Shown: one piece after another, positions 37,906 through 53,306 of the stretch
How the letters are laid out: every line of letters starts with the position of its first letter
Position numbering within the stretch: the first letter of the stretch is position 1
Assembly: GCA_944382835.1 (NCBI GenBank)
Contig: CALWNP010000004.1
Coordinates: forward strand, 20,462-84,461
Source of the DNA: an uncultured Gemmiger sp.
Lineage (GTDB): Bacteria > Bacillota > Clostridia > Oscillospirales > Ruminococcaceae
Length of the DNA: 64,000 nucleotides
Direction of reading: 5' to 3'
The notes under the pieces: generated by a model
Databases searched by the model: none
What the model was told of the DNA's origin: nothing
Seen by the model: the letters and a program-made list of their open reading frames with translations, nothing else
Made by a program: the position numbers and the translations under genes

Positions 37906-40500
37906 TCAGCGTGCCACAATCACCAGCATGGCGTTGACTAGCACCCCGGCATGGACCAGGCAGAAAACCGACAGCAGCCCGGAAGCGGCGACATGGCCAT
38001 CCCGGACGGTGGCCCGGCGGGGAATGCAGGTCAACAGCAGCAGAGGCAGCACCGGCAGGAAATACCGGCCCTGCAAGCCGTAAAGGGTTTCATTGTGCAC
38101 CGGGGTCCAGAGCAGGCAGCTGGCCACCGCCAGAGCGCAGCAGACCAGTGCGGCGACAGCGCCCCAAACGCGATACCGCCCCTGGGGCAGCTGGGCCAGA
38201 CCCTCGGCGGTGGGCAGGGCGGCGTAGGCCAGCAGCAGATAGAGCAGAATGACCCAGCCCCAGGCCAGATCAAGAGAATAGTAGCTCAGGCTGCCGCCCA
38301 CCAGGGTGCAGAGATAGTGGTCGGTGTTCTGCAACAGGGTGCGCACCAGCATCATCACCGTCTGGGCAGGATGGCGCAGAATATACCCTGGCGTGTAGGT
38401 GATCCGGTCTTCCTCGGCGGTGTAGCTCTGGTTTTCCCGCACGGTGCGGGCCTGCTCCGCCTCCTGTTGGAGGTCACTGCGGTCCAGGGGATAGCGGTCG
38501 GGGTCAAATTCTCCCACCGTGATGCCGCAGGCGGCAAACCGGTTGGCGGCCTCCTCGCTGGCATACAGCGCCTTGAACACGGTAACATTACCGTCCGTCT
38601 GCTGCATGGTGCGGAACTGGTCCGGGTCATCCTGCATCACATCCCGCCCCAGAAAGACATAGCTGGCGGCGGAGATAAAGGCATCCCCGGTCAGGGTGGG
38701 ATTCTCCACCGCCTCGGGGCTGAAGAAGAAGCTCTGGGCCAACAGGGCGGCGGTGGTATCCCCCTCGGTCAGCGCCTGTACCCAGAAATCCACTTCCTTC
38801 TGGGGCAGATCGGTGGTCTCTTCGGTGCAGTAGTAGAGCAGCCGCACAAAGGCTTCGGGAGTATTTTCCAGCAGCTCTTCCGGTACGGCGGAGAATGCAG
38901 AGGTTTCCGCCGTTTCGGGGGAGGGCTTTCCCTTGAGCACCGCACTGGTGGTATCGGCCTGGACCACAGGCTCGGCGGTTTCGGTTACTTCGGTTTCCGG
39001 CGCCGTCGTGATGGCATCGGAAAGCATGGTGCCGTTGAGTGCCAGCGCCAGCAGGACACAGGCTGCCAGATAGCCGGCCTTTTTCAGCCCGGCCCGCCGT
39101 CCCAGCCGGGCAGCGGGGATCAGCAGCACCAGGGCAGCCAGGGGCAGATACACCACCTTGGCTGGGGCCAGCAGCAGCCCGCAGAGCGCCATCGGCAGCC
39201 ATAGCCGCCAGGACAGCCGGGCCTCGGACTGGCCGTAGATCGCCTGGGCACACAGGGCAGTGAAGGCAAAGCAGAGGCCCAGAAGCAGGGCGTCCCGGCT
39301 GAAGGAAGCCGCCAGATGCAGCGTCATGGGCAGCAGTGCCGCGGCGGCAAAGATTCGTTTGCCGAAGGGCGCCCGGCGCACCGCCAGGGCGGCCAACGCC
39401 GCAAAGCAGAGCAGATTGGCCAGACGCCCCAGCATCAGGGTGGGTACAAAACCCAGGCGCAGCAAAAAGCAGAGAAAGACCACAGCGGCGCTGGGCAGGT
39501 AGAGCAGGGGATTGCGGTCGGTCTGCTGTTCGTCCCGTGCCAGATGGCTGTCAAAGGCGTCAGGGCTTCGGGTCAGCAGCTGGTCGGTCACCTCCTGCCA
39601 GGTAAAGACGGTGGTGCGCTCCTCCTGCAGCAGCGGGTCGGTGTCGTGTTCCCGGCGGTAGGAGGTGGTCAGCGGGACGTTGCCCATCTTCCAGTCCTCG
39701 CTGCTGAAAAAGTTTGCCCAGCGGCAGGCCAGGGTGAAGGACTGGTTGATGTGGTATTGTTCATCGGGGGCGGCATAGGGGGGCAGCACCACGCTGTACA
39801 GCAAACCAAAGCAGAGCACCAGCCCAAAGACAAGGCGGTGCAGCGCAACTTTCCGGGACAAAGCAGCGCGCATCCCGAAAAAGACCACCACGCAGGCAGC
39901 CAGCCCCACCAGCAGGAAGAACCGGGTCAGGAATCCGCCGATCCGCCGGTAGGTTACGATCATGGCCAGGGTGCCGTCCACCGTCTGTCCCGCCACCGTG
40001 AGGGTGTCATCCCAGAGGACGGCACCGTTGGAATAGCAGACCGACAGGCGGCCTTCGCCGGTGTAGTGGGGGGTCAGGCTCAGCAGATAGCGGCGCCCTT
40101 CCACACCTTCCACCGGCGGGTCCAGCCCCAGACCGGTGTATTGGCCCGGCAGGATGTTGCCCATCTCGCCGGTGGAGGTGGCCAGCACCTGGCCGGTTTC
40201 GGCATCAGCCAGGGTCAGCTCCAGGGACCCGGTGGGCTGTTCCCCGGGGATGGAAAAGACTAGCGCCATGGCCAGCAGATCGCTGTCCAGCGAAAAGCTC
40301 TGGGTGACCGTCTGACCGTCTTCCAGCGGTTCCGAGGAGACGGTGTAGTCATCGCAGAGGGTGGTGGAAAGGCCCTTGCCCAAATTGGGGCGGACCGCCG
40401 CCAGCCAGATCAGAAATAACAGCACAAGGCACCCCGCCGAGGCTGCCAGAGCCAGGACGGTGTGCCTGTGAAGATGCAGTTTTTGACGAAAACCGGACAT
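37906..40500 (-). CDS. DUF2142-family large membrane protein
   Basis: This 864-residue membrane protein has one N-terminal span, a beta-rich outer domain (~35-230), then many spans. The PPYAAPDEQYH motif after a span is the hallmark of DUF2142 (PPDEPxH), a group thought to have a GT-C-like fold in polysaccharide loci. A second outer segment interrupts the spans at ~530-690. I chose ATG 40500 with GGGAGG before it; ATG 40524, overlapping the KdsC stop, is the alternative. It probably adds or transfers a sugar outside the membrane. Confidence 0.78.
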   Translation of the reverse strand: MSGFRQKLHLHRHTVLALAASAGCLVLLFLIWLAAVRPNLGKGLSTTLCDDYTVSSEPLEDGQTVTQSFSLDSDLLAMALVFSIPGEQPTGSLELTLADAETGQVLATSTGEMGNILPGQYTGLGLDPPVEGVEGRRYLLSLTPHYTGEGRLSVCYSNGAVLWDDTLTVAGQTVDGTLAMIVTYRRIGGFLTRFFLLVGLAACVVVFFGMRAALSRKVALHRLVFGLVLCFGLLYSVVLPPYAAPDEQYHINQSFTLACRWANFFSSEDWKMGNVPLTTSYRREHDTDPLLQEERTTVFTWQEVTDQLLTRSPDAFDSHLARDEQQTDRNPLLYLPSAAVVFLCFLLRLGFVPTLMLGRLANLLCFAALAALAVRRAPFGKRIFAAAALLPMTLHLAASFSRDALLLGLCFAFTALCAQAIYGQSEARLSWRLWLPMALCGLLLAPAKVVYLPLAALVLLIPAARLGRRAGLKKAGYLAACVLLALALNGTMLSDAITTAPETEVTETAEPVVQADTTSAVLKGKPSPETAETSAFSAVPEELLENTPEAFVRLLYYCTEETTDLPQKEVDFWVQALTEGDTTAALLAQSFFFSPEAVENPTLTGDAFISAASYVFLGRDVMQDDPDQFRTMQQTDGNVTVFKALYASEEAANRFAACGITVGEFDPDRYPLDRSDLQQEAEQARTVRENQSYTAEEDRITYTPGYILRHPAQTVMMLVRTLLQNTDHYLCTLVGGSLSYYSLDLAWGWVILLYLLLAYAALPTAEGLAQLPQGRYRVWGAVAALVCCALAVASCLLWTPVHNETLYGLQGRYFLPVLPLLLLTCIPRRATVRDGHVAASGLLSVFCLVHAGVLVNAMLVIVAR

Positions 40501-40516
40501 AATGCCTCCCGGATGG

Positions 40517-41023
40517 TCAGACATCGGCGCCAAAGGCGGTGCGGGCAGCCTGCTGCCAGCGGCCTTCCCGGCGCAGCAGCTGGTCCACCACCCCGCGCAC
40601 CGCACCCTGGCCGCCCTTCTGGGGGCAGATGTAGTCCACATGGGCCCGGACGGCCTGGACCGCATCGGCGGGGCAGGCGGCAAAGCCGCAGAGGGCCATG
40701 GCAGCCAGATCGTTCAGATCATCGCCGCAGTAGGCGACCTCCTCCTTCTGGAGGTTGTGCTCGACCAGAAATTTCTGTAAAAAGGCGGCCTTGTCCTGCA
40801 CATCCTGGTAGAGGTACTTGATCTTCAGATCCCGGGCGCGGTGGGCCAGGGCCTCACAGGCGCGGCCGGTGCAGATCAGCACCTCGATGCCGGCCGCCCG
40901 GGCCAGCAGAATTCCGGCGCCGTCCCGCACCGCAAATTTTTTCACCTCGTTGCCGGTGGCATCGTAGTAGATGCCGCCATCGGTCATGGTGCCGTCAACG
41001 TCCAAAACCAGCAGTTTAATCAT
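40517..41023 (-). CDS. KdsC-like HAD phosphatase (ulosonic acid phosphate phosphatase type)
   Basis: This 168-residue HAD enzyme lacks a cap domain and has LLVLDVDGTMTDGGIYY (nucleophile Asp8, Asp10), ICTGR, KAAFLQKF and YCGDDLNDLAAM. This matches KdsC, which removes phosphate from Kdo 8-phosphate, and the related NeuNAc 9-phosphate phosphatases. ATG 41023 has AAAGGAT upstream and starts 4 nt beyond the aldolase stop. With the KdsB-like gene nearby, it should act on a keto-deoxy sugar acid phosphate. No KdsA is in the window. Confidence 0.87.
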   Translation of the reverse strand: MIKLLVLDVDGTMTDGGIYYDATGNEVKKFAVRDGAGILLARAAGIEVLICTGRACEALAHRARDLKIKYLYQDVQDKAAFLQKFLVEHNLQKEEVAYCGDDLNDLAAMALCGFAACPADAVQAVRAHVDYICPQKGGQGAVRGVVDQLLRREGRWQQAARTAFGADV

Positions 41024-41027
41024 CGTT

Positions 41028-42593
41028 TCAAATCCTTTCGTATTCACTCGGCGTCACAAAGCGCACCGGCAGACCCGCGGCGCTCACGGCGCGGATGGCA
41101 CCCGCCACCGACACATTGTAGGCTGTACCCCGGTCGGTGTGGGTGTGCAGGCGGGCATCGGCATAGGCGGGGGTCCCTTCCCGGTAGCCGTCGGCACCGG
41201 CCAGCAGCGCTTCGGCGGCGCCGCACAGCCGCAGCAGCCGCAGCAGCATCAGCACACTGTTTCCGGCCTGGGCATCGGCGCCGGCCAGCCGGTCGTAGCA
41301 GACCGCCAGGGCCTGCTCGGGCAACGGCCGCAGGTTGGAGGTCAGGATCACCGGGCAGGGCAGGGCCTCTGCCTTTTCGTACCGCTTGCTGTTGGTGTAA
41401 AAGGCATAGTCCGGGGTACAGAACTCGGGGCAGAAGTTGGCCGAAACGGTCAGATCGGCACCGGCAGCGGCCACGGCGGCCTGTCCTTCGGGGGTGGCCA
41501 GACTGGCACCGGGGGCCAGCACCAGCACCCGCTTGCCGCCAAAGGCAGCCTTCAGGGTTTCCAGCGCCTTGGCATCGTCGATGTTGCGGCGCTGGTACTC
41601 GTTGTACAGCCCGTCGGCGTAGGCGGCGTCAAAGACGGCGGCCTTGGAGCGGTCGATGGCCGAGAGAATGTGGTTGATGTCCCGGTTGGTCAGATCCCCC
41701 TTGGCCAGATAGTGCTCGGCATAGTTGCGGTGCAGGTTGAACCGGGCCGAGAGGAAGTAGGCCGGGGTGTAGCCCCACTGGGTTTCCCCCTTGAGGGGGG
41801 CGATGTGATCCTGGATGGCATCCATCAGCTCGTCGATGTCATAGTGGGCGCTGTGGCTTTCGTTGAGGTAGTCGGCCACCAGCTCGATGGGCAGGTTGCC
41901 GGGAATCCGGCCCATTCCCATCAGGCTGGCGTCGATGGTGATGTCCCGCTGGAGCTGCTTCTCCACAAACTCCTGGGCCAGGCAGAAGCTCAGCGCCATA
42001 TTCTCGTGCAGATGCAGCCCTACCCGGATATCGGGGGCCAGGTTGTGGTCCACCAGGCTGACAATCCGGTCCAGATCCCGCCGGCGCATGCTGCCGAAGG
42101 TATCCACGATGGAGAACTGCCAGGGATGGATGGCGTTGACCTGGTCCAGAATCCAGAGCAGGTCCTTGTCGGAATAGCCCATGATATTGATGGGGTTGAT
42201 GGAGAGCTGGTATCCCCGGGCCTTGACCTCCCGGGCAAAGTCCATGCCCTCCCGGATGTCGTACTCGTGGGCGGTGATGCGCAGAATGGAGATGCCCTTG
42301 CCCTCGTAGGGGGAGAGCTTGCGGATGTCGTAGTTGGAGCGCATGGCCATGCCGCTGTACAGAGTATGTCCGGTGTTGGCGGGCAGCAATCGGTTGAGCT
42401 CCTCGATGGTATTGCAGACCGTCACATCGGGGTTGTATTCCGGTACATTGCGCAGGAAGCCGACCTCCACAATGTTGGTGCCGGCCTTGGTCAGGGTGGA
42501 GATGATGTCCCGGGCCGGGGCAAAACCCCAGTGCCAGTTGTTGACATACCCTCCGTCCCGCAGGGTGCAGTCCAGAAGATCAATCTTGGGCAT
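41028..42593 (-). CDS. DmpG/HMGL-like aldolase with extra C-terminal domain
   Basis: This 521-residue protein has an N-terminal DRE-TIM metallolyase-type barrel: DCTLRDGGY (residues 8-16), GYSDKDL, VDTFGSMR and the metal-binding HLH at 194-196. Closest known enzymes are 4-hydroxy-2-oxovalerate aldolases, which join or split pyruvate and an aldehyde. From ~350 a second domain begins (KRVLVLAPGASL), resembling Rossmann-like DUF115/MptE-type domains. It sits between KdsC-like and KdsB-like genes, where a Kdo or sialic acid synthase would be expected, so it may build the sugar acid. The exact reaction is inferred. Confidence 0.8.
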   Translation of the reverse strand: MPKIDLLDCTLRDGGYVNNWHWGFAPARDIISTLTKAGTNIVEVGFLRNVPEYNPDVTVCNTIEELNRLLPANTGHTLYSGMAMRSNYDIRKLSPYEGKGISILRITAHEYDIREGMDFAREVKARGYQLSINPINIMGYSDKDLLWILDQVNAIHPWQFSIVDTFGSMRRRDLDRIVSLVDHNLAPDIRVGLHLHENMALSFCLAQEFVEKQLQRDITIDASLMGMGRIPGNLPIELVADYLNESHSAHYDIDELMDAIQDHIAPLKGETQWGYTPAYFLSARFNLHRNYAEHYLAKGDLTNRDINHILSAIDRSKAAVFDAAYADGLYNEYQRRNIDDAKALETLKAAFGGKRVLVLAPGASLATPEGQAAVAAAGADLTVSANFCPEFCTPDYAFYTNSKRYEKAEALPCPVILTSNLRPLPEQALAVCYDRLAGADAQAGNSVLMLLRLLRLCGAAEALLAGADGYREGTPAYADARLHTHTDRGTAYNVSVAGAIRAVSAAGLPVRFVTPSEYERI

Positions 42594-43320
42594 GAGAGCC
42601 TCCTTTCAGGATCTCGTTGACAAGGGCGAGATCTTTGGGGGTGTCCACGCTCACCGTCTTGTAGGGGCTGAGGATGGCGTGGACCTTGTGGCCGTTTTCC
42701 ACGAACCGCATCATGTCGTTTTCCTCGGCCAGTTCCAGGGCAGATTTGGGGGTGTCGTGGTAGAATTGCAGGGCCCGGCGGCTGTACAGCTGAATGCCGG
42801 TGACCTTTTCATAGTCAAAATCCAGGGTTCCTTTGGGGTAGGGGATGGGGCTGCGGGAGATCATCAGAATTTCCCGGGCCGCATTGGTTACCACCTTCTG
42901 GTTGGAAAAGTCGATGACATCGGCGGGGTGGTCCATTCGGTTGGTCAGCACCGCCACATAGAAGGGATCCTCGGGCAGGGTCTTGGGCAGAATCAGCTCA
43001 AAGGCCTTGGCGTTGATCAGCGGCTCGTCCCCCATGACCTGGAGATAGAGGTCGGCTTCCACCTTGGTGGAGACCTCCCAGATCCGCCCGGTGGGGGTGT
43101 CGTGGTCGGGGCTGGTCATGCAGTATTTCATGCCGTGGGTTTCACAGGCGGCGGCAATCCGCTGGTCGTCTGTGGCGATCAGGCAGTCGTCCAACAGGGG
43201 GCTCTTTTTGGCCTCCTGATAGACCCACCAGATCATGGGTTTGCCCAGCACGTCGGCCAGGGGTTTGCCCGGCATCCGGGAACTGGCGTAGCGCGCCGGA
43301 ATCACAGCGATGGTTTTCAT
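42580..43320 (-). CDS. KdsB-like CMP-sugar (3-deoxy-manno-octulosonate) cytidylyltransferase
   Basis: This 246-residue enzyme has the CMP-Kdo synthetase signature IPARYASSRMPGKPL at the N terminus, ATDDQRI, the catalytic VMGDEPLI (usually QGDEPLI) and later IPYPKG. Enzymes of this family couple CTP to a 2-keto-3-deoxy acid. Length fits KdsB (~250). ATG 43320 has AAAGGA 8 nt upstream; the stop overlaps the aldolase start by 14 nt. Gram-positives seldom carry this gene, so another sugar acid than Kdo may be the substrate. Confidence 0.88.
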   Translation of the reverse strand: MKTIAVIPARYASSRMPGKPLADVLGKPMIWWVYQEAKKSPLLDDCLIATDDQRIAAACETHGMKYCMTSPDHDTPTGRIWEVSTKVEADLYLQVMGDEPLINAKAFELILPKTLPEDPFYVAVLTNRMDHPADVIDFSNQKVVTNAAREILMISRSPIPYPKGTLDFDYEKVTGIQLYSRRALQFYHDTPKSALELAEENDMMRFVENGHKVHAILSPYKTVSVDTPKDLALVNEILKGGSHAQD

Positions 43321-43345
43321 GGTCAATCCTTTCCGGTCCGGATGC

Positions 43346-44314
43346 TCAGAGCAGTGCCCGGGCCTGGTCTAGGGTGAGAAAAACGGTCTCCTCGGCAGCA
43401 GTGAAGCCGCGCAGCACCCAGCTCTGGACAGTAACCGCCCGGCGGAACTTGCCCGGCAGGCAGAAATTGAGCACCTCGCTGGGCATGGTGCGCTCCAGCA
43501 CCACGGCCTGGGGAAACAGTGCGGTATAGTCGGTGGTGTCCCGGGGATGGGTCTTGATGAACAGCGGCCCGTCAGCATAGCGGGCGGCCACCGCCCGGAA
43601 GATGGCATCCTGGGTTTTCTGGTCCATCAGCCCGTCCTGGACAAAGCTGCGGGGCAAAAGCAGGGTGGCCTTGCCCAGCAAAGCGGAGTCATCGGGCAGG
43701 GGCTGGGTCAGAAAGACCCGGCGCACCGCGGCTTTTTCAGCATCGGTCAGCCCGGCCAGCAGAGCCGCCTTGGAAAAAGTCAGCAACTTGTCGGCAGGGA
43801 AGAGGGTGCAGCGGGCTGCGTCCTCGCTCTCCACCTTGCGGCAGCAGGGGCTGTCCCCCCAATAGAGGTAAGGCCCGGCAGGCTTGGCCCGCTGTTCCAC
43901 CAGCAGATGCTGGTCGGGGTCCAGGGTGGCACCCTGGGTGTCCTCACAGAGGATGTAGGGCGCACCGCAGTCCTGGAGATACCGCCCCGCCACACTCCAG
44001 TCGTTGCTGATGTAGATGTGGCGGTAGCGGTGCCGGTCCAGCGCCGGACCCACGCCGGCCTTTTCATAGGCGCGGCGGTTGCGCAGATGCCCCAGCGGCC
44101 CGGTGACGATGCCCGGCCAGCGGGACTCGTGCAGCACCGCAATCTCGGAGAAGATCCCCTCCAGGCGTCCGGAGGCAGCCAGGCCTTCGGCGTTGGGAAC
44201 CTCTTCACAGAGCCAGAGGGCCTGCCCGCCGCCGGCCCGCAGCGCCCGGATCACCGCAATCAGCAGGTGATAGGCGGTGTGGCAGACAAACAGATCGGGA
44301 TGGGATTGTGACAT
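43346..44314 (-). CDS. Polysialyltransferase-like (GT52-type) glycosyltransferase
   Basis: This ~322-residue protein begins LFVCHTAYHLLIAVIRA, which resembles the start of GT52 and alpha-2,8-polysialyltransferase-like enzymes (a strand followed by T-x-YH-L). Later blocks IKTHPRDTTDY and LPGKFRRAVTVQSW fit the acceptor and CMP sites only loosely. These families use CMP-sialic acid, matching the CMP-sugar synthetase gene 25 nt downstream. Start is ATG 44314 or 44317; both follow GGAGG at 44322-44326. Family call is moderate. Confidence 0.62.
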   Translation of the reverse strand: MSQSHPDLFVCHTAYHLLIAVIRALRAGGGQALWLCEEVPNAEGLAASGRLEGIFSEIAVLHESRWPGIVTGPLGHLRNRRAYEKAGVGPALDRHRYRHIYISNDWSVAGRYLQDCGAPYILCEDTQGATLDPDQHLLVEQRAKPAGPYLYWGDSPCCRKVESEDAARCTLFPADKLLTFSKAALLAGLTDAEKAAVRRVFLTQPLPDDSALLGKATLLLPRSFVQDGLMDQKTQDAIFRAVAARYADGPLFIKTHPRDTTDYTALFPQAVVLERTMPSEVLNFCLPGKFRRAVTVQSWVLRGFTAAEETVFLTLDQARALL

Positions 44315-44316
44315 CA

Positions 44317-45594
44317 TCAGTCCTCCAGCAGTTTGACGGGCGGGAAGTGAATCCGGCCCCATCCGGCGGCCCACTCCGGCATGGAGAGGTCGCCGCTGGT
44401 GACTTCAAAGGCAAACTCGGTCACCGGCTTGTCCAGGCAGACGGCCTGGGCCAGGGCTCCGTCAAAGATATCGATGTAGAAGAAATACTGTCCCTCCCCC
44501 AGCAGACTGGGGTCAAACTCAAAGATGGTGGTGTACAGCCGCCCCGGTTCGGCGGCGCCCAGGTCCACCGGATGGGTGATGCCCACCGGGGTGGAGTCCC
44601 GGAAATGCAGGTTGAGTTTCATGTGGATGCCGGCAAAGGGCTCGGACACCCGCCAGGTGATCTTCACCCGCATCTTTTCGGTGTCGGCAAAGACGCTGGA
44701 CTCTTTATCGAGAAAATCCAGGCTTTCCAGCCGCAGCCGTTTGCCGGCGCTGCCGGTCATCCGGGAAACCTTGGCCAGATCATAGTGCACCACATTGACA
44801 TCGGTGGTGTCCATATAAACGGCGATGGCCTGTTCCACATCCCCGTCATAGATGATCTTGCCCTGATCCAGCACCACGCAGCGGGTGCAGAGCTGGCGGA
44901 TGGTGCTCATGTTGTGACTGACATAGAGGACGGTGCGGCCTTCCTGACCGGCCACGTCGCTCATCTTGCCCAGGCATTTCTGCTGGAACTTCATGTCACC
45001 CACGGCCAGGACCTCGTCCATGACCATGATCTCGCTGTCCAGATGGGCCGCCACAGCAAAAGCCAGCTTGACGAACATGCCGCTGGAATACCGCTTGACC
45101 GGGGTGTCGATGAAATCTCCACACTCGGAAAATTCGATGATCTGGTCCAGCTTGGCGTCCACCTCGGCCCGGGTCATGCCCAGGATGGCGCCGTTCATAT
45201 AGATATTTTCCCGGCCGGTCATCTCGTTGTTGAAGCCGGTGCCCACCTCCAGCATCGAGGCTACCCGGCCGCGCAGCCGGATTTCCCCCTCGGTGGGGGC
45301 GGTGATGCGGGAGAGAATCTTGAGCAGGGTGGATTTTCCGGCGCCGTTGCGCCCGATGATGCCCAGGGCTTCCCCCTGATAGACGGTCAGATCCACCCCG
45401 TTGAGGGCCATGAAGGTCTGACCGAACAGCCGGGTGTCGGTGCCGATGACGGTGTTGGGGTCCTCCTTGCCGCGCACCCGCGCCCACCAGCTTTGCAGGT
45501 CGTGGGTCAGGGTGCCGCCGCCGATCTGCCCCAGTTTGTATTGCTTTTTCAGGCCCGTGATCTGGATGACGGGCCGACGCTGTGTTGATGCCAT
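44317..45594 (-). CDS. Polysaccharide ABC exporter ATPase with Wzt-type C-terminal domain
   Basis: This 425-residue protein has Walker A GRNGAGKST (81-89), the KRYSSGMFVKLAF signature and MVMDEVLAVGD Walker B, typical of TagH/Wzt-class exporters. Residues ~265-425 form an extra beta-rich domain like the Wzt carbohydrate-binding C terminus, which in O-antigen export recognises a finished chain end. With the permease just upstream (12 nt) it forms the exporter. The extra domain suggests that export depends on a terminal sugar, perhaps that set by the genes downstream. Confidence 0.9.
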   Translation of the reverse strand: MASTQRRPVIQITGLKKQYKLGQIGGGTLTHDLQSWWARVRGKEDPNTVIGTDTRLFGQTFMALNGVDLTVYQGEALGIIGRNGAGKSTLLKILSRITAPTEGEIRLRGRVASMLEVGTGFNNEMTGRENIYMNGAILGMTRAEVDAKLDQIIEFSECGDFIDTPVKRYSSGMFVKLAFAVAAHLDSEIMVMDEVLAVGDMKFQQKCLGKMSDVAGQEGRTVLYVSHNMSTIRQLCTRCVVLDQGKIIYDGDVEQAIAVYMDTTDVNVVHYDLAKVSRMTGSAGKRLRLESLDFLDKESSVFADTEKMRVKITWRVSEPFAGIHMKLNLHFRDSTPVGITHPVDLGAAEPGRLYTTIFEFDPSLLGEGQYFFYIDIFDGALAQAVCLDKPVTEFAFEVTSGDLSMPEWAAGWGRIHFPPVKLLED

Positions 45595-45606
45595 CTTGGT
45601 CCTCCC

Positions 45607-46482
45607 TTACACGGTGTCCATAAAGGTCTTTTCGATCCGGCTGAACAGGATGATACCCGCCACCAGTGCGATGAGGGTGACGACAACGCTGTACACCAGA
45701 TTGCCCACCAGGACGGTGCCGGTGCCCAGGGTGGCCATCCGGAACACCTCCACAGGGGAGGTCATGGGGTTGAGGGTCATCAGAGCCCGCAGACGGGGGG
45801 ACTCATCCAGGCTGGACAGGGGATAGACCACGGGGGAAATGTACATCCAGAGCTGGACACCGAAGCCCACCGCGATGGCGAGATCCCGGTATTTGGTGGT
45901 CAGGGCCGAGACAATGATGCCCACGCCCAGACCCAGCAGCATGACCTCCAGCACCACAAAAGGCAGGGCAATGACCCAGAGGGTCAGATGAATCCCGGCG
46001 CCGGTGACCCAGAAATAGATCCAGAAGAGAACGAACATCACAAACTGGATGAAGAAGTTGATAAGACTGGTCAGCACCTGGCTGATGGGGGTGGACAGGC
46101 GGGGAAAATACACCTTGCCGAATACCTGGCTGTTGGCCACAAAGGTGTTGGCGGTGTTGTTGATGCAGGAGGCAAAGAAGGTCCACAGAGTATTGCCCGC
46201 CATGTAAAACAGGAAGGAGGGGGTACCGTCGGTGGACAGACCCGCAATGCCGCCGAACACCACGTTGAAGAGGACGGTGGTGATCAGCGGGTTAAGGATG
46301 ATCCACAGCGGGCCCAGGATGGTCTGTTTGTAGAGCACCGTAAAGTTGCGCTTGACAAACATCGTGATCAGATCACGGTAACGCCAGAGTTCCTGCAAGT
46401 CGATGTCGAACCAACCGGTGCGGGGTTTGATGATGGTGGTCCATTCATCGTTGCGGTCGTTGGTTTGGATTTGTTCAGCCAT
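45607..46482 (-). CDS. ABC-2 type polysaccharide exporter permease (Wzm/TagG-like)
   Basis: This 291-residue membrane protein has six hydrophobic spans and the Wzm/TagG pattern: LWRYRDLITMFVKRNFTVLYKQTILGPLW before span 1, and PVVYPLSSL with NPMTSPVEVFR near the last two. It forms the channel with the ATPase gene 12 nt downstream. I chose ATG 46482 with AAAGG upstream; an in-frame TTG at 46515 is less likely. First gene of its unit, behind the promoter at 46533. Confidence 0.92.
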   Translation of the reverse strand: MAEQIQTNDRNDEWTTIIKPRTGWFDIDLQELWRYRDLITMFVKRNFTVLYKQTILGPLWIILNPLITTVLFNVVFGGIAGLSTDGTPSFLFYMAGNTLWTFFASCINNTANTFVANSQVFGKVYFPRLSTPISQVLTSLINFFIQFVMFVLFWIYFWVTGAGIHLTLWVIALPFVVLEVMLLGLGVGIIVSALTTKYRDLAIAVGFGVQLWMYISPVVYPLSSLDESPRLRALMTLNPMTSPVEVFRMATLGTGTVLVGNLVYSVVVTLIALVAGIILFSRIEKTFMDTV

Positions 46483-46532
46483 GGTGGCACCTTTCTTTTT
46501 GGTGGATTGAGCCAAAGCTCTATATAGGCATT

Positions 46533-46641: not shown

Positions 46642-47703
46642 TCAGGGGCGCTTCATCCGTCCCAGCAGCAGGTAGTAGCCGCCCCAGTCCAGCTTGCCGA
46701 ACAGCGGCGAACCGGTGCGGGCCGCTTCGGACAGGGCATACAGCCAGTGCAGGCTGCGCCATCGCAGGGGCAGGTAGTAGGGGCTGTAACAGTGTTCCCG
46801 CCGCATCTGGCGCAGCAGGCCCAGCAGCCAGGGGTTCAGCAGGGCGTTGCGGGCTTTCTGTCGGCGCAAAACACCGGGGTGCAGCGGGTCCCGGCGCAGG
46901 ATGTCGGCCACCCCTTCGCCGTAAACCCGCAGCTCGGCCCGGTGCAGCGGCAGCAGGTCCTCGGCAGGGCAGTTGGCATCGGCGCAGGCGGCGTTGAGCT
47001 TGGCAAAGTGCTCGGGCCAGATGGCGCAGTATTCGGGGTGGTAGCGGGTGGAAAGGGTCCCATCCCGGCTGCAGTCGTAAAAGGTCAGGGCACTTTCAAG
47101 GACACGATACCGGAAATGAGGCGTTTTTCGGCCCAGCAGCGCGATATAATCCAGAACAAACTGTAAATCTTCCCCCAAGGTGTATGCTGCGTTGAACTTC
47201 AGCAGCTTGGCCAGGTCACAGCGGTAGAGCTTGTTCCAGGGCATGGCGATGAGGCAGTCCAGATACAGCCGTGCCAGGGCGTCCTGGGGGCGGGTCTGTG
47301 CCGCAGCGGTGACCGGCGCCGGATCATTGGCATCGGTGGTGTAGTTCCAGAGGACAAAACTGTCCGGGTCCGCGGCCTGGGCATCCAGGGCGGCTTGCAG
47401 TGCACCGGGGCGCAGGGCGTCGTCGCTGTCCAGAAAGACCACATAGTCGGCGTAGGCCAGGTCCAGCCCGGCGTTGCGAGCGGTGGAAACACCCCCGTCC
47501 TCCTTGTGCAGGGCGGTGACCCGGGGGTCCCGGCGGGCGTATTCGTCACACATCGCACCGCAGTTGTCGGGGCTGCCGTCGTCCACCAGGACACAGCAAA
47601 GCCCGCCCTCCACCTGTTGGGAGAGAATGCTCTCCACACAGCGGGACAGGGTCTTTTCGGCGCCCCAGACCGGGACAATCACACAGACGGCGGGTTTTTG
47701 CAT
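46642..47703 (-). CDS. Family 2 glycosyltransferase
   Basis: This 353-residue protein has VIVPVWGAEKTLSRCVES, VDDGSPDNCG, GGVSTARNAGLD and FLDSDD, the standard GT2 blocks. The C-terminal ~140 residues are helical and specific to this group. It is the last gene of the unit and overlaps the upstream GT4 gene by 25 nt. Likely a cytoplasmic enzyme adding a sugar to a lipid-linked chain. Confidence 0.9.
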   Translation of the reverse strand: MQKPAVCVIVPVWGAEKTLSRCVESILSQQVEGGLCCVLVDDGSPDNCGAMCDEYARRDPRVTALHKEDGGVSTARNAGLDLAYADYVVFLDSDDALRPGALQAALDAQAADPDSFVLWNYTTDANDPAPVTAAAQTRPQDALARLYLDCLIAMPWNKLYRCDLAKLLKFNAAYTLGEDLQFVLDYIALLGRKTPHFRYRVLESALTFYDCSRDGTLSTRYHPEYCAIWPEHFAKLNAACADANCPAEDLLPLHRAELRVYGEGVADILRRDPLHPGVLRRQKARNALLNPWLLGLLRQMRREHCYSPYYLPLRWRSLHWLYALSEAARTGSPLFGKLDWGGYYLLLGRMKRP

Positions 47704-48926
47704 ACCGATTCTCCAAAGTCACCAAAGTCGTAGACGATGCGCAGAAAATTCTCGTAGAACCGCCCGGTGGAAAACTTCTGGGCGGTCTGGGCGCCGGCAC
47801 GGCCCATCTCCCGGCGCAATTCGGGGTGATCCCGCAGCATTTCAATGGCCCAGACCAGCTGACCGGTCACATCCCGGTCCCGGTCAATCAACACCGCCTG
47901 GCTGCCCTCCAGATACTCCGGCATACCGCCGCTGCGGGTGGCCAGCACCGGGCGGCCACAGCCCATGGCTTCTACCGCCACCAGACCGGCGGCCTCCTCC
48001 ACCAGGGTGGGCACACAGACCAGGTCCGCCAGACGGTAATAGTCGGGCAGGTCCCGGTTGTTGACAAACCCGGTGAACTTGACCCGGTTGCCCAGGCTCC
48101 GGGCCTGCTGTTCCAGCCGGCGCAAAAAAGGGCTGGACTGAGTCCGCCCGAAGAAGGGGCTGCCCACGATGAGCAGCTTCACATGCTCGTCGTGCAGTCC
48201 GGCCACCGCCTCCAGCAGCTTGTGGATGCCCTTGTCGGGTTCCAGCCGTCCGCAGAAGAGCAACACAAAATCCTCCGGCGCAAACCCCAGCGAGGCGCGC
48301 AGGGCGGCGTCGGGGGAGCCGGGGGTAAACAATCCGGTGTCGATGCAGTTGGGCAGGATATAAGCGTTTTTGCGGTCCAGGGCGCTGGTTTTCAGATAGT
48401 CATCCCGGATGAACCGGCTCAGAGCCAGGACACCTCCGTAGATTTCATCCATCTGACGGCTGCAGGAGGTCTGGCCATGGAGATGGGCCAGGCAGCGCTT
48501 GCGGCCGAACATCCGGCTGATGGCACTGCACTGGGTCAGGGTGCCGCCCTCGGCCACAATCAGATCGGGCGGGGGCAGTTCCAGCGCCAGCGAGAGCTGG
48601 ACCTTCTGATACCAGGGATCATAGGGCGCAGCAATGCCCAGGCACCGCTCAATAAAGACCATGGGCCAGTAACGGCGGGTGCCTTTGGGGCGAGGAATGT
48701 AGAGCATCTTGGTGTGGACAAAGTCGTCCGCCTGGGCTTTGGCCGCCGGATCGGGGATGCTGGCGCAGAGCAAATCCAGCTTGCCTGCCCGCTCGTTTTC
48801 CCGGATCAGGTGGGTGATCAGGGTTTCCACCGCACCGCCCTGCACTGCGGGCACCGGAAGTTCCGGCGGCGGAATGAGCAGGATGCGGGGCCGATGGGGC
48901 GGTTTGGCCGTGTTGCGAAGCGGCAA
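47679..48926 (-). CDS. Family 4 glycosyltransferase
   Basis: This 415-residue GT-B enzyme has an N-terminal LIPPPELPVPAVQGGAVETL loop and the C-terminal LLFCGRLEPDKGIHKLLEA, LIVGSPFF and EEAAGLVAVEAMGCGRPV (E(x7)E) blocks of GT4. It overlaps the following GT2 gene. GGAGG is seen before the ATG. Sugar specificity unknown. Confidence 0.9.
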   Translation of the reverse strand: MPLRNTAKPPHRPRILLIPPPELPVPAVQGGAVETLITHLIRENERAGKLDLLCASIPDPAAKAQADDFVHTKMLYIPRPKGTRRYWPMVFIERCLGIAAPYDPWYQKVQLSLALELPPPDLIVAEGGTLTQCSAISRMFGRKRCLAHLHGQTSCSRQMDEIYGGVLALSRFIRDDYLKTSALDRKNAYILPNCIDTGLFTPGSPDAALRASLGFAPEDFVLLFCGRLEPDKGIHKLLEAVAGLHDEHVKLLIVGSPFFGRTQSSPFLRRLEQQARSLGNRVKFTGFVNNRDLPDYYRLADLVCVPTLVEEAAGLVAVEAMGCGRPVLATRSGGMPEYLEGSQAVLIDRDRDVTGQLVWAIEMLRDHPELRREMGRAGAQTAQKFSTGRFYENFLRIVYDFGDFGESVCKNPPSV

Positions 48927-48977
48927 GGAAAAACCTCCTTCCTCAGATTGGGCAGCGGGGCAATATGCCGCTCTGCC

Positions 48978-49958
48978 TTACTTTTTGGAAGGGCAGAGGC
49001 TTTCGGCCGGCATCATGGCCCAGCGGGCGGCCGAAAGTTTTTCGGTCATCTTGAGCTGCTTGCAGTTGGGCAGGTAGCTGATCAGCCCCTGCATCAGGAA
49101 CTGCTCTTTGGAGATCGCCTTGATCAGCTGGGGGGTGGGGGCCTGGCGCACCTTGGCGCACAGGAAGAGGTACCGCCGCCAGCAAGCCGCATAGGCGTTG
49201 TCAATCACCGAGCGCTCGGCGCTGTTCTCTACATAGAAGCGGTAGCGGTCGGCCAGACCATCCACCGCGTCAAAGGCCTCGGGCTTGGTGGCGGTGCGGC
49301 AGATGCTGCCATTGCGCAGCCGGTAGCAGTAGAGCTTATCCGGCAGGCAGACCACCTTGTCGCAGCGCCAGAACAGCCGGTGGGCCACGAAGTCATCCTC
49401 GTGCAGCCGTCCCTCGGGGTAGTGGAGCAGTTTCCATACCTCGGCACGGTAGAGTTTATTCCAAGCAACGGTGTAATAGGTACCGTTGGGGGCATAGAAG
49501 CAGTTGAGCAGATCCTTGCCGCAGAAGGTGCCCACCTCGGTGGGATCGGTGTAGCTGGGCGGATCCAGGCTGCTGCCGTCCTCGGCCACGTCCTCCACCG
49601 CGCAGATGGCCATGTAGGCGTCGTTGGTCTCGCAGGCGTCGTACAACGTCTGCAGATAGCTCGGACGCAGGATGTCATCCGAGTCCACAAAGGCGTAATA
49701 ACGCCCGTGGGCGGCATCAATGCCGGTGTTGCGGGCGGCGGAAAGCCCCTGGTTCTCCTGATGGAACACCCGCACCCGGGTATCTTTGGCCGCAAATTCA
49801 TCGCACAGTTCGCCGCACCCGTCGGTGGAACCGTCGTCCACCAGCAGGACTTCAAAGGATTGGTCGAAAGCCTGGTTCAGGATGCTGTTGATACATTCCT
49901 CCAACCAAGGCTTGGTGTTGTAGATGGGAACGATCACACTGACAATCACATGTTCCAT
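48978..49958 (-). CDS. Family 2 glycosyltransferase
   Basis: This 326-residue GT2 enzyme has VIVPIYNTKPWLEECINS, VDDGSTDGCG, GLSAARNTGID and FVDSDD. The C-terminal half, with KLYRAEVWKLL and HEDDFVAHRLF, is that of the capsular GT2 group. It is separated by 6 nt from the upstream GT2 gene. The four GT2 proteins around here are similar in layout, which suggests past duplication. Confidence 0.9.
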   Translation of the reverse strand: MEHVIVSVIVPIYNTKPWLEECINSILNQAFDQSFEVLLVDDGSTDGCGELCDEFAAKDTRVRVFHQENQGLSAARNTGIDAAHGRYYAFVDSDDILRPSYLQTLYDACETNDAYMAICAVEDVAEDGSSLDPPSYTDPTEVGTFCGKDLLNCFYAPNGTYYTVAWNKLYRAEVWKLLHYPEGRLHEDDFVAHRLFWRCDKVVCLPDKLYCYRLRNGSICRTATKPEAFDAVDGLADRYRFYVENSAERSVIDNAYAACWRRYLFLCAKVRQAPTPQLIKAISKEQFLMQGLISYLPNCKQLKMTEKLSAARWAMMPAESLCPSKK

Positions 49959-49964
49959 AACGCT

Positions 49965-50987
49965 TTAACCTCTTTTCCCGCATTTCTCAATCACGATTCC
50001 CCACAGCCCGGCCAGCTTGTAGGCTGCCGACGGGTTGGCGCAGAACAAAACTGCGCGGATTTTTTCAAATTTCGGCACATACGGACACCGCAAGATGTCC
50101 GGCAGAATCTGGTCCAGATGCTTCTTGTGCTTGGCAAATCCTTCTTTGAGGGTTTGCTGAACCCCGGCGGCCCCGGCCAGACACCAGAAGGTGTAAAAGA
50201 CCTTCCAGTACCAGGCCACCGCCCATTGGTGCCACAGTTCCCGCCCCGGACGGGCGGCAAAATAACACAGCCAATCCCAGTACATCCGCAGGTCATCCAG
50301 CTTGCGGGCCGGGAAGGTGGAGGCGGTCATCTGCCCCCGGCGGGTGCGGTAATGGTAGAGCACATCGGGCAAACAGACAGCCTTTTCGCCCTCGAAGACC
50401 AGGTGCAGCACACTGGCATCATCCCCGAAAAACATCGACTCGTCATAATGGATGCCTTTGTCCCGGAAAACATGAAGATCAAACAGCTTGTTCCAGCTCA
50501 ACGGGCCGTAGAAGCTGCCGGTCTGGAAGGTTTCCAGCAGCAACTCCTGGGCGTCTCGTACCCCATGCTGCCGGATTTCCACCATCCGCCCCGGGATGGG
50601 TTGGCCTTCCTCGTCGATGGCATCCCCGGTGCAGGCCGCAATCCGGGCACCGGTGGACTGGATGGCCCGGTAGAGGGTTTCGTACATCCGCGGTTCGATC
50701 AGATCATCCGAATCCACAAACCCCACATAATCCCCGCGGGCATTGTCCAGCCCCACATTGGCCGCCGAAGCAGGACCGCCGTTGGGCTTGTGGAACACCC
50801 GGATCCGGGGATCGGTCTTGGCCAGCTCGTCGCACAGCGCTCCGCAGCCGTTGGGGCTGCCATCCTCCACCAACAGCAGTTCAAAGTCGGTGAAGGTCTG
50901 GGCCAGAATGCTCTGTACGGTGTGCGGCAGATAGTCCTTGGCATCGTAGACGGTGGTAATGATGCTGATCGTCGGGTGAGAGGGCAT
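49965..50987 (-). CDS. Family 2 glycosyltransferase
   Basis: This 340-residue GT2 enzyme has IITTVYDAKDYLPHTVQS, VEDGSPNGCG, GPASAANVGLDNARG and FVDSDD, with a helical C terminus (SWNKLFDLHVF, FGDDASVLHLV). It lies between two other GT2 genes in the same orientation. Donor and acceptor unknown. Confidence 0.9.
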   Translation of the reverse strand: MPSHPTISIITTVYDAKDYLPHTVQSILAQTFTDFELLLVEDGSPNGCGALCDELAKTDPRIRVFHKPNGGPASAANVGLDNARGDYVGFVDSDDLIEPRMYETLYRAIQSTGARIAACTGDAIDEEGQPIPGRMVEIRQHGVRDAQELLLETFQTGSFYGPLSWNKLFDLHVFRDKGIHYDESMFFGDDASVLHLVFEGEKAVCLPDVLYHYRTRRGQMTASTFPARKLDDLRMYWDWLCYFAARPGRELWHQWAVAWYWKVFYTFWCLAGAAGVQQTLKEGFAKHKKHLDQILPDILRCPYVPKFEKIRAVLFCANPSAAYKLAGLWGIVIEKCGKRG

Positions 50988-51009
50988 CGGAAGCTCCTTT
51001 TGACAAGAT

Positions 51010-52029
51010 TTACAGCAGGCGGTTTTTCAGCAGGGTATAGGCCGCCAGAAAACCGGGCAGGCCAAACGCCACACCAAAGCGGTAGGGCAGGGCCAGCAAA
51101 CGGTTGGGGTCGGCCCGCAGCTGCCCGGTTAAGGCGGCACGGGCGGGGACACAGGCCAGAATCCGGGCAAAGAGCGCCCGGCGCCTGGCGTAGGACATCT
51201 GCCCCTTGCATCCGGTGAGCAGCCCGTACTGGTTGAGGGCTGCCCGGACCTCGCTCTCCTGCAGCATCGCCTGGCAGGTTTCGGGCGGCAGCGAAAGGCT
51301 TTGCAGCAGCCGGGCCAGGGAGGGGCGGATGTAGACCTCGGTGTCCAGCAGATCCCCCCGCAGACGGCGGGACAAACTGCCCGACAAAAGGTCGTTTTGC
51401 TTATAGTATACACCCGGCAGGCAATAAATGGCAGAGGAATTTTGTAAAAAAAGTAAAAAATCTATGTTGAACAAAACATCCTCGTTGATTTTCAAACCCT
51501 CGTCAAACCGCAATTTGCCCCGGCGGAGCAGGTCGGCCCGGAACACCTTGGCATAGGGGGCGGCCAGGTATCCGCTCTCAAACAGCAACGGGCGCAGGGC
51601 CTGCCCCAGGGCGGCGGTGTTGGGGTACTGCCCCGGCGCCAGCGGACAGGGGGCCGGGCCGCTGGCGCGGGTCATACCGAAGAGAACCAGAGCAGGGGAG
51701 TCGGCCAGGGGGACTTCCAGTGCCTGCCACAGGCCGGGCAGCAGTTCGTCATCGGCGTCCACAAAGAGAACCCAATCGCCCCGGGCATTTTCAAGACCGG
51801 TGTTGCGGGCCGCCGAAGCGCCTCCGTTGGGGCGGTGGAAAACCTTGATCCGGGCATCCTGCCCGGCCAGCGTGTCACAGAGGGCACCGGTCCCGTCGGG
51901 GCTTCCGTCCTCCACCAACAGCAATTCCAGGTTTTCCGGGGCATCCCGCAGTACACTGTGGACTGCCCGCTCCAGGGTTTGCTCGGCGCGGTAACAGGGG
52001 ACAATCACACTGATGGAGGGCAGACTCAT
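51010..52029 (-). CDS. Family 2 glycosyltransferase
   Basis: This 339-residue GT2 enzyme has VIVPCYRAEQTLERAVHS, VEDGSPDGTG, GGASAARNTGLENARG and FVDADD. I chose ATG 52029, which overlaps the stop of the upstream GT4 gene (ATGA). The open frame continues upstream only as a shadow of that gene. The C terminus (KVFRADLL, INEDVLFN) fits the same capsular GT2 group as its neighbours. Confidence 0.9.
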   Translation of the reverse strand: MSLPSISVIVPCYRAEQTLERAVHSVLRDAPENLELLLVEDGSPDGTGALCDTLAGQDARIKVFHRPNGGASAARNTGLENARGDWVLFVDADDELLPGLWQALEVPLADSPALVLFGMTRASGPAPCPLAPGQYPNTAALGQALRPLLFESGYLAAPYAKVFRADLLRRGKLRFDEGLKINEDVLFNIDFLLFLQNSSAIYCLPGVYYKQNDLLSGSLSRRLRGDLLDTEVYIRPSLARLLQSLSLPPETCQAMLQESEVRAALNQYGLLTGCKGQMSYARRRALFARILACVPARAALTGQLRADPNRLLALPYRFGVAFGLPGFLAAYTLLKNRLL

Positions 52030-53306
52030 GGTTGGGCCTCCTCGGTGATGGCGGTGTAGATACCCAGCAGGTCGGCGGCGTTGCGGGCCGGGTCGTGGGT
52101 GGCCAGGGCCCGGCGGCGGGCTGCTGCGCCCTGGGCGGCACCGTGGTCGGGGGCGGACAACAGCTCGATGGCAGCCGAGGCCAGCGCCTCGGCATCCCCG
52201 GCAGGACCGTAGATCCGGCCCTCCTTGCCATCCTCCAGCATGTCGGGAATTCCGCCCGCCCGGCTGGCCAGGCAGGGCATCCCGAGAAGCATGGCTTCTC
52301 CCAGACTGTTGGGGCTGTTCTCGCTGAAGGAGGGCAGTACAAAGAGGTCGGCATCCAAGAATGCCTGCCGCATGGCATCGGCCTGGAGGGGGCCGGTGTA
52401 GTGCAGGCAGTCCTCCACCCTCAACCGGTGGGCCAGGGACTGGCAATAGTGCTGGTAGGGAAACATCCATTGGATGACCGGCCGCAACAGCGGACCTTTG
52501 TCCAGCGGCGGCCATCCGGCAATGTGCAAGGTCAGGCCGGGCCAGCGCTGGCGCAGCCGGGGCAGGGCCTGCAGCACGGTGTGCAGGTTTTTCAGCGGAT
52601 AGTTGCCCTGGCTCAGCAGCAGCACCGGGGACTGGCCGAATTCATGGGGCTGCCAGAGGGGACCGCTGTAAAAGGGAGAACGCAGGGTTTCGTTGCAGCG
52701 AAAATACCGGGCTTGGGGGGCCATCTTCTGGCAGAACTGCCGGTCAAAACCGGTGCGGCCGGTGAGATACCGGGCCTTGCGGAGGACGGCAGCTTCGTTT
52801 TGGGCCAGGGCGTCAAAGTTGGCCTGGCTTTTGTCCAAGAGCGCACCGGGGACCACCCGGTCCACCAGACGCTGCAATACAGAGCTGTGGAGATAGCGCT
52901 CGGGCACCCCGTCACAGAGATGGGCCGCGCAGTCCCCCATGATCCCCTGGATGCCCAGCAGCACCGGCAGATGCAGCGCTTCGGCAGCGGCCTGCAAAGC
53001 GGAAACAGCGGGGTATTCGGTCCCCCAGATGTGGACAAGATCGGGGTGTTCCTGCCGCAGCAGAGCGGCAAAGGTCGGTTGGCTGGCATCGGGCAGCAGG
53101 GCAAACCGGATGCCGTCCCGGCTGCCGGTGGTCAGGGTACTGACCCGGTGGTCAATACTGCAGATGGTCAGCGCCGGGGCATCGGGGCGGGCGGTCAGAG
53201 CGGTGAGCTGGCCGGTCAGCCAACCGCCGCTCACTTCCCGGGCCTGCAGGCCGCAGGCAGCGGCTGCCGCAGGCAGGGTGATGCTCACAAGCCAGAGGAC
53301 CTTCAT
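52026..53306 (-). CDS. Family 4 glycosyltransferase
   Basis: This 426-residue GT-B enzyme begins VLWLVSITLPAAAAACGL, and its C-terminal half has LLSQGNYPLKNLHTVLQAL, LHIAGWPP and SENSPNSLGEAMLLGMP with the E(x7)E-like pair. These fit GT4. It overlaps the downstream GT2 gene by 4 nt. A run of Ala codons near the N terminus replaces the usual glycine loop, a small oddity. Confidence 0.87.
   Translation of the reverse strand: MKVLWLVSITLPAAAAACGLQAREVSGGWLTGQLTALTARPDAPALTICSIDHRVSTLTTGSRDGIRFALLPDASQPTFAALLRQEHPDLVHIWGTEYPAVSALQAAAEALHLPVLLGIQGIMGDCAAHLCDGVPERYLHSSVLQRLVDRVVPGALLDKSQANFDALAQNEAAVLRKARYLTGRTGFDRQFCQKMAPQARYFRCNETLRSPFYSGPLWQPHEFGQSPVLLLSQGNYPLKNLHTVLQALPRLRQRWPGLTLHIAGWPPLDKGPLLRPVIQWMFPYQHYCQSLAHRLRVEDCLHYTGPLQADAMRQAFLDADLFVLPSFSENSPNSLGEAMLLGMPCLASRAGGIPDMLEDGKEGRIYGPAGDAEALASAAIELLSAPDHGAAQGAAARRRALATHDPARNAADLLGIYTAITEEAQP

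Follow-up and report, generated by a model that had tools for sequence, protein, structure and literature searches.

Taken together, our data favor a model in which six genes on the minus strand of a 64,000-nucleotide stretch of DNA from an uncultured Gemmiger sp. (contig CALWNP010000004.1; "the window" hereafter means this whole stretch) form an operon that likely makes a cytidine monophosphate (CMP)-activated 3-deoxy-2-ulosonic acid by a route started by an aldolase, the acid probably not being 3-deoxy-manno-octulosonic acid (Kdo). Kdo and sialic-acid-type sugars are the textbook surface acids and, to our knowledge, the routes to them all begin with a synthase dependent on phosphoenolpyruvate (PEP). 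In our model, a metal-dependent DRE-TIM aldolase would join pyruvate, in its enolate form, to a sugar-phosphate aldehyde; by forming a 2-keto-3-deoxy sugar-acid phosphate it would replace both the PEP-dependent synthase (KdsA or NeuB) and arabinose-5-phosphate isomerase. A KdsC-like enzyme of the haloacid dehalogenase (HAD) type would, as its family suggests, strip the terminal phosphate; a KdsB-like enzyme, judging from its family and its kept catalytic residues, would couple the free acid to CMP; a GT52-type enzyme would move the acid onto a surface glycan; and Wzm/Wzt would export that glycan. The model builds on observed gene content, gene order, conservation, a gene fusion, partner replacement and the lack of the standard enzymes, and from these we infer the pyruvate donor, the sugar-phosphate acceptor, the order of phosphatase and activation, the transfer and the export; assembly and export of a polymer by the locus is plausible.

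Each of the six genes is an open minus-strand frame (Table 1), and the ATG at 46482 is the likely start of the Wzm-type permease. In the order Wzm-Wzt-GT-KdsB-aldolase-KdsC they are spaced by +12, -58, +19, -14 and -20 bases, an operon-like arrangement which, with the open frames and the family matches, agrees with the close or overlapping minus-strand unit of the initial annotation. The same order is kept in L086, L087, L089, L090, L096, L100 and L144 and, as far as its contig reaches, in L088; these records are named Gemmiger (L090 is Gemmiger formicilis ATCC 27749), Subdoligranulum or (L100) Clostridia, and the recurrence of the order in relatives is more than chance.

Table 1. Genes of the operon and its flanks in the window, with the family model behind each call.
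Feature	Coordinates	Strand	Evidence
Wzm-type ATP-binding cassette (ABC) exporter permease	45607-46515	minus	PF01061 (ABC2_membrane) 62.8 bits, cut-off 26.9
Wzt-type ABC exporter ATPase with C-terminal extension	44317-45594	minus	PF00005 (ABC_tran) 80.2 bits, cut-off 25
GT52-type transferase	43346-44374	minus	PF07922 29.1 bits, cut-off 26.1
KdsB-like cytidylyltransferase (CMP-ulosonate synthetase)	42580-43326	minus	PF02348 (CTP_transf_3) 131.6 bits, cut-off 22.6
DRE-TIM (HMGL-like) aldolase, 521 aa	41028-42593	minus	HMGL-like 54.4 bits, cut-off 29
KdsC-like HAD phosphatase	40517-41047	minus	TIGR01670 153.4 bits, cut-off 106.95
DUF2142 membrane protein, next gene downstream of the KdsC-like gene	37906-40683	minus	PF09913 136.7 bits
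Upstream surface-glycan region, several glycosyltransferase-like genes	46642-52515 (approximate)	minus	PF00535 for 46642-47703; rest from open reading frame sequences only

The aldolase, present as one copy in its genome, consists of a catalytic domain (about residues 1-310) with the R-D, E and HxH residues and the TIM-barrel fold of DRE-TIM metallolyases, and a C-terminal domain (about residues 340-521); this C-terminal part of about 190 residues was absent from the description in the initial annotation. Records named Gemmiger and Subdoligranulum contain the nearest relatives of the aldolase, with 73-78% identity in the best-matching segment, in agreement with the tree. The description of the enzyme as DmpG-like holds as a distant likeness and fails as a family assignment, the DmpG equivalog TIGR03217 scoring 60 bits against a cut-off of 286. 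When 130 catalytic domains are placed in a tree, three DmpGs from DmpG-DmpF operons are split from the aldolases by a branch of length 4.21 with support 100, so that the aldolase does not group with the catabolic DmpG-DmpF pairs, a grouping that the initial annotation had named as evidence against its proposal. The DmpG/BphI 4-hydroxy-2-oxovalerate aldolases also lack the extra C-terminal domain and, in contrast to their systems, no aldehyde dehydrogenase was found among the eight locus proteins scanned. A catabolic DmpG reading was rejected on the tree, the TIGR03217 score and the neighbours. The nearest solved relative by sequence (3.5e-47) is the N-terminal domain of BVU_2661 of Bacteroides vulgatus (PDB 3dxi, "putative aldolase"), whose title names no function and which is also joint first in a structure comparison whose result is dominated by the barrel.

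In an unbiased sample of 391 Clostridia, the class to which the window belongs, 46 genomes have an aldolase match at E<=1e-20, short forms included, and 10 a KdsB match at E<=1e-15; eight of these ten KdsB-like genes adjoin the aldolase, one (in G243) has KdsA, an SIS/CBS isomerase and KdsC at its side instead, and one (in G011) a DHDPS-family aldolase, so that all ten adjoin a gene of a family capable of forming a keto acid. The class search gave 49 rows, of which all but the own genome and eight weaker matches were taken with their neighbourhoods. Counting same-strand genes up to 2.5 kb away, 7 of these 40 neighbourhoods have a KdsB-type gene, 9 a NeuA-type gene and 11 a thiamine pyrophosphate (TPP) enzyme. 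Among named records we took the best 80 matches on their contigs and counted partners up to 7 kb away on the same strand: 71 of the 80 have a cytidylyltransferase of KdsB or NeuA type, a count biased because the query alignment was made of cytidylyltransferase-linked aldolases. By partner, these 80 loci divide into cytidylyltransferase plus phosphatase (51), cytidylyltransferase only (19), cytidylyltransferase plus TPP enzyme (1), TPP enzyme only (6), phosphatase only (2) and none (1). The aldolase-KdsB-KdsC triad for which the initial annotation suggested a search across genomes recurs.

The partners also exchange. On a second tree, cut from 130 to 110 rows by dropping long branches, DmpG and partnerless short forms, the KdsB label changes 16 times (shuffled mean 37) and the NeuA-type label 16 times (shuffled mean 27), and this repeated swapping of two cytidylyltransferase families beside the same aldolase argues that the product of the aldolase is what they activate. 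In one locus (L061, genome G057) aldolase and KdsC are fused into a single 760-residue protein. Both observations speak against a scheme in which the KdsB-like enzyme activates a scavenged acid, such as host sialic acid or dietary Kdo, while the aldolase serves another branch of the glycan. Although the relatives are largely gut organisms and the KdsB of G011 has YhcH and a DHDPS-family aldolase in its locus, perhaps for sialic-acid use, free scavenged acids need no phosphatase, and we regard scavenging as very improbable. In that G011 locus (L169:4222-6400), the KdsB-like gene stands between the YhcH-family and the DHDPS-family aldolase genes, and it may serve the use of sialic acid or of the nonulosonic acid Kdn.

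The standard synthases are not linked to the six-gene operon. Searches of the whole own genome, which measures 2.5 Mb and is 90.9% complete, with the KdsA and NeuB families placed nothing on the contig of the window, C4, in line with the initial annotation, which saw neither gene in the unit. No KdsA was found in this genome: PF00793 matches two genes, both synthases of 3-deoxy-arabino-heptulosonate 7-phosphate (DAHP) (TIGR01361, 402 and 386 bits; KdsA model TIGR01362, 120 and 115 bits against a cut-off of 314). PF03102 matches are confined to contigs C7 and C11 and comprise one true NeuB (C7, 313 bits) and weak matches on the two DAHP synthases. This NeuB lies in a separate legionaminate-type locus with its own cytidylyltransferase, so that a kdsA or neuB linked to the gene set from elsewhere in the genome, the other finding named beforehand as contrary, was not seen either; the proposal that an aldolase stands in for KdsA/NeuB is accordingly supported by the genomic tests. 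The legionaminate-type CMP-sugar locus on C7 (L085:5011-12304) consists, besides NeuB, mostly of what we take to be aminotransferase, nucleotidyltransferase, epimerase, oxidoreductase and cytidylyltransferase genes. A reading of the operon as a source of a CMP-activated phosphonate was rejected because a search of the own genome for PEP mutase (E<=0.001) found none.

Beyond the own genome, we searched 65 genomes (50 of the 80 named and 15 of the class sample). KdsA exceeds its cut-off in 5, and 34 have neither KdsA nor NeuB. For NeuB, the weaker PF03102 matches, which reach about 51 bits, were disregarded, since the two DAHP synthases of the own genome fall into this range. As to the suggested co-occurrence of the triad with loss of KdsA and NeuB, 24 of 40 genomes with a KdsB-linked aldolase show neither synthase. 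No KdsA-like match was found in any of the 80 named neighbourhoods, and in the class sample KdsA is over its cut-off in 2 of 391 genomes, G243 and G202, the latter with a NeuA-type-KdsA-isomerase-KdsC arrangement.

Could the aldolase simply make Kdo-8-phosphate, or a common stereoisomer, and thus provide an ordinary CMP-Kdo pathway with another first enzyme? The CMP-Kdo pathway (KdsD/KpsF, KdsA, KdsC, KdsB) has in common with the window a KdsC-like and then a KdsB-like step in a surface-glycan setting, and the same class has KdsA versions partnered by KdsC and a cytidylyltransferase of KdsB or NeuA type (L170, L171), which permits a direct comparison of the two layouts. The difference lies in the first steps and in the KdsB pocket. 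A KpsF-type isomerase over the cut-off (203.7) was found in 2 of the 27 genomes tested, which are the two KdsA genomes, and in none of the 24 aldolase-KdsB genomes; weaker SIS-domain matches in two of the 24 temper this absence. In the own genome, TIGR00393 gave no match at E<=1e-10, a search that a short SIS-only type could escape. The KdsB-like protein itself exceeds the cut-off of the broader subfamily PRK05450.1-5 (212 bits against 193) and stays under that of the KdsB equivalog TIGR00466 (122.3 against 155.2), and its nearest solved sequence is 1gq9, a 3-deoxy-manno-octulosonate cytidylyltransferase. The aspartates D98 (GDEP) and D225 (VDTP; KpsU numbering), which we take to be metal ligands, are kept in all 52 aldolase-linked KdsBs. 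In or near the pocket domain, six positions invariant in seven of seven Kdo-type KdsBs are altered in the aldolase-linked ones, which keep T124 in 1, R162 in 2, L200 and Q202 in none, Q96 in 10 and H172 in 28 of the 52; in the KdsB tree the aldolase-linked enzymes fall on one side of a branch with support 87. The KdsC-like protein passes its family model TIGR01670 and does not reach the KdsC equivalog PRK09484.1 (149.6 bits against 208), and its nearest solved sequence is 3e81, presumably a Bacteroides Kdn-9-phosphate phosphatase. On the isomerase result and the altered KdsB positions, we regard the Kdo scheme as improbable and Kdo itself as an unlikely product. The two KdsA loci, L170 (G243) and L171 (G202), look like complete Kdo modules of cytidylyltransferase, KdsA, SIS/CBS isomerase and KdsC.

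For hints at the aldehyde that the aldolase of our preferred route would accept, we turned to the neighbours. Their clustering in the 80 named loci gave 21 unlabelled clusters present in at least 4 loci; one member each of 18 of them was scanned against Pfam, yielding glycosyltransferases, flippases, other common types and four without a match, and no sugar isomerase or kinase among these 18. Lacking such a dedicated enzyme among the scanned neighbours, the locus would most likely draw on an aldose phosphate of central metabolism.

A third alternative makes the aldolase a general branch-point supplier of keto acid whose product goes to an enzyme other than KdsB, for example a TPP enzyme elsewhere. 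It is consistent with relatives whose neighbours are CDP-3,6-dideoxyhexose genes and TPP enzymes of the acetolactate-synthase kind, and with others fused to IspD beside a 2-hydroxyacid dehydrogenase; yet TPP enzyme and cytidylyltransferase are nearly exclusive, occurring together in 1 of the 80 named loci and, in the class sample, only in L057 (33-bit match only) and L072, and the TPP model had no match in window positions 33001-54000, the rest of the genome being outside this search. We consider such a diversion in the window highly improbable. Aldolases adjoining acetolactate-synthase-like TPP enzymes are seen in L056, L059, L062, L063, L066, L067, L068, L073 and others, often with the CDP-3,6-dideoxyhexose genes; perhaps these loci encode a branched-sugar pathway of the yersiniose kind. 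In L075 one fused protein has an IspD-type cytidylyltransferase (PF01128) followed by the aldolase domain, with a D-2-hydroxyacid dehydrogenase adjacent, and L074 and L076 are similar in length, start and neighbour (L074, L075 and L076 are from G115, G076 and G255); the fusion loci are possibly a third fate of the keto acid. It is tempting to speculate, with somewhat less than even confidence, that DRE-TIM aldolase and HAD phosphatase constitute a portable keto-acid module and a third enzymatic entry into CMP-ulosonates, with CMP activation by KdsB- or NeuA-type enzymes as in the window, TPP-dependent transfer onto CDP-sugars, and reduction plus CDP activation by the IspD fusions as its fates.

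Several observations weigh against an aldolase-started route to a CMP-ulosonate. Of the 80 named loci, which as noted favor cytidylyltransferase partners, six have a TPP enzyme only and three neither partner (two of these three start <700 bases from a contig end), no phosphatase was found on the same strand in those 7 kb in 27, and one (L165) has NeuB in its neighbourhood (46 bits with a one-sequence model, 138.5 bits with PF03102). Ten of 24 NeuA-type calls score about 95-116 bits; five weak and two stronger calls that were checked all belong to PF02348. NeuB is present elsewhere in the own genome and at >=100 bits in 28 of the 65 other genomes, and many assemblies are drafts or metagenomes, so that absences are soft. 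The SIS-domain matches below the KpsF cut-off reach 134 bits in G434 and 113 bits in G104, and an isomerase of the short type, lacking CBS domains, might have gone unseen. Finally, the position after the TLRDG motif that holds the conserved histidine of DmpG, which we take to be its catalytic base, is His in three of three DmpGs, Tyr16 in the window aldolase, and Tyr in 76 and His in 8 of 89 aldolase relatives, so that the chemistry may differ from that of DmpG.

Downstream of the aldolase step, the transferase was initially annotated as polysialyltransferase-like; since PF07388 (polysialyltransferase, GT38) reaches 17.6 bits, under its cut-off of 23.3, and PF07922 is over, GT52 is the better label. 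It is probably a user of a CMP-sugar. E144-D145 and H276-P277 are kept in 19 of 19 chosen rows, window included; PMC5517516 describes an HP motif for sialyl- and beta-Kdo transferases, and the glycine spacing of the acidic pair is unlike the D/E-D/E-G given there. The core domains of both exporter proteins are over cut-off, while the top NCBIfam model for the permease, a galactan export permease, is far under (63 bits against 380); the Wzt_C model for the ATPase is also under its own (19.7 against 30.4).

The arrangement is not confined to Gram-positives: the gene set of the pathway proposed for a Gram-positive is present in Gemmiger-like genomes, and an aldolase-KdsB-HAD triad also lies on a Leisingera plasmid (25.5% identity), with further aldolase-cytidylyltransferase loci in records named Akkermansia, Spirochaetaceae and Gastranaerophilales, metagenome assemblies in which misplaced contigs are possible. 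Seven of 86 plasmid records with KdsB served as controls (the Leisingera record not counted). KdsB adjoins KdsA and an isomerase in those of Pseudomonas and Streptomyces NBC_00963, and that of Klebsiella oxytoca has a kps-type locus that includes a KpsF-family gene; the records of Bacteroides, Parabacteroides, Streptomyces NBC_01471 and Fusobacterium list no synthase near KdsB.

Some features of the loci stand apart. The C-terminal domain of the aldolase (window 41031-41576) has an invariant AGxDG and a weak MptE-like similarity. The window copy matched no Pfam family; among 14 members, D-lyxose isomerase (0.00079) and MptE-like (0.0014) were each matched only once, and weakly; pairwise hhalign with the MptE-like neighbours gave E 1.4e-4 at 52% probability, and the best E value against solved chains was 0.2, with 8sd5 (pterin pyrophosphokinase) at 0.31. 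In L112 and L113, two named loci (of the 80) that are otherwise similar, the aldolase is 345 residues long and lacks this domain. Several loci encode a conserved protein of about 700 residues (L047:7757-9862 and relatives, C15), the L047 copy of which has no Pfam match at 0.001. For the downstream DUF2142 gene an internal start is likelier, because the TTG start gives a 167-base overlap with the KdsC-like gene; a neighbour family containing DUF2142 (cluster 19) is found within 7 of the 80 named loci.

From the phosphatase onward, the window pathway by analogy resembles both the Kdo and the nonulosonic acid pathways. The latter (NeuB/PseI/LegI with a NeuA-type synthetase) have the CMP-ulosonate logic in common with it, and some aldolase relatives pair with NeuA-type enzymes, whereas no NeuB lies in the window. 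We file the window under neither pathway, since searches for KdsA, for KpsF and for a linked NeuB found none of them. We found no description of an aldolase route to a CMP-ulosonate in a search of the open literature and few subscription journals, and the accessible parts of PMC12409901, PMC6697681, PMC3149649 and PMC5517516 do not describe one. The recurring aldolase-KdsB-KdsC arrangement thus points to an undescribed way to a CMP-activated sugar acid. If so, gut bacteria such as Gemmiger would display ulosonic acids that annotation calls Kdo, extending host-facing glycan chemistry and adding a new enzyme set for making CMP-sugars; and the portable module, if it exists, would give surface sugar acids not yet seen, probably with chain lengths other than those of Kdo and sialic acid.

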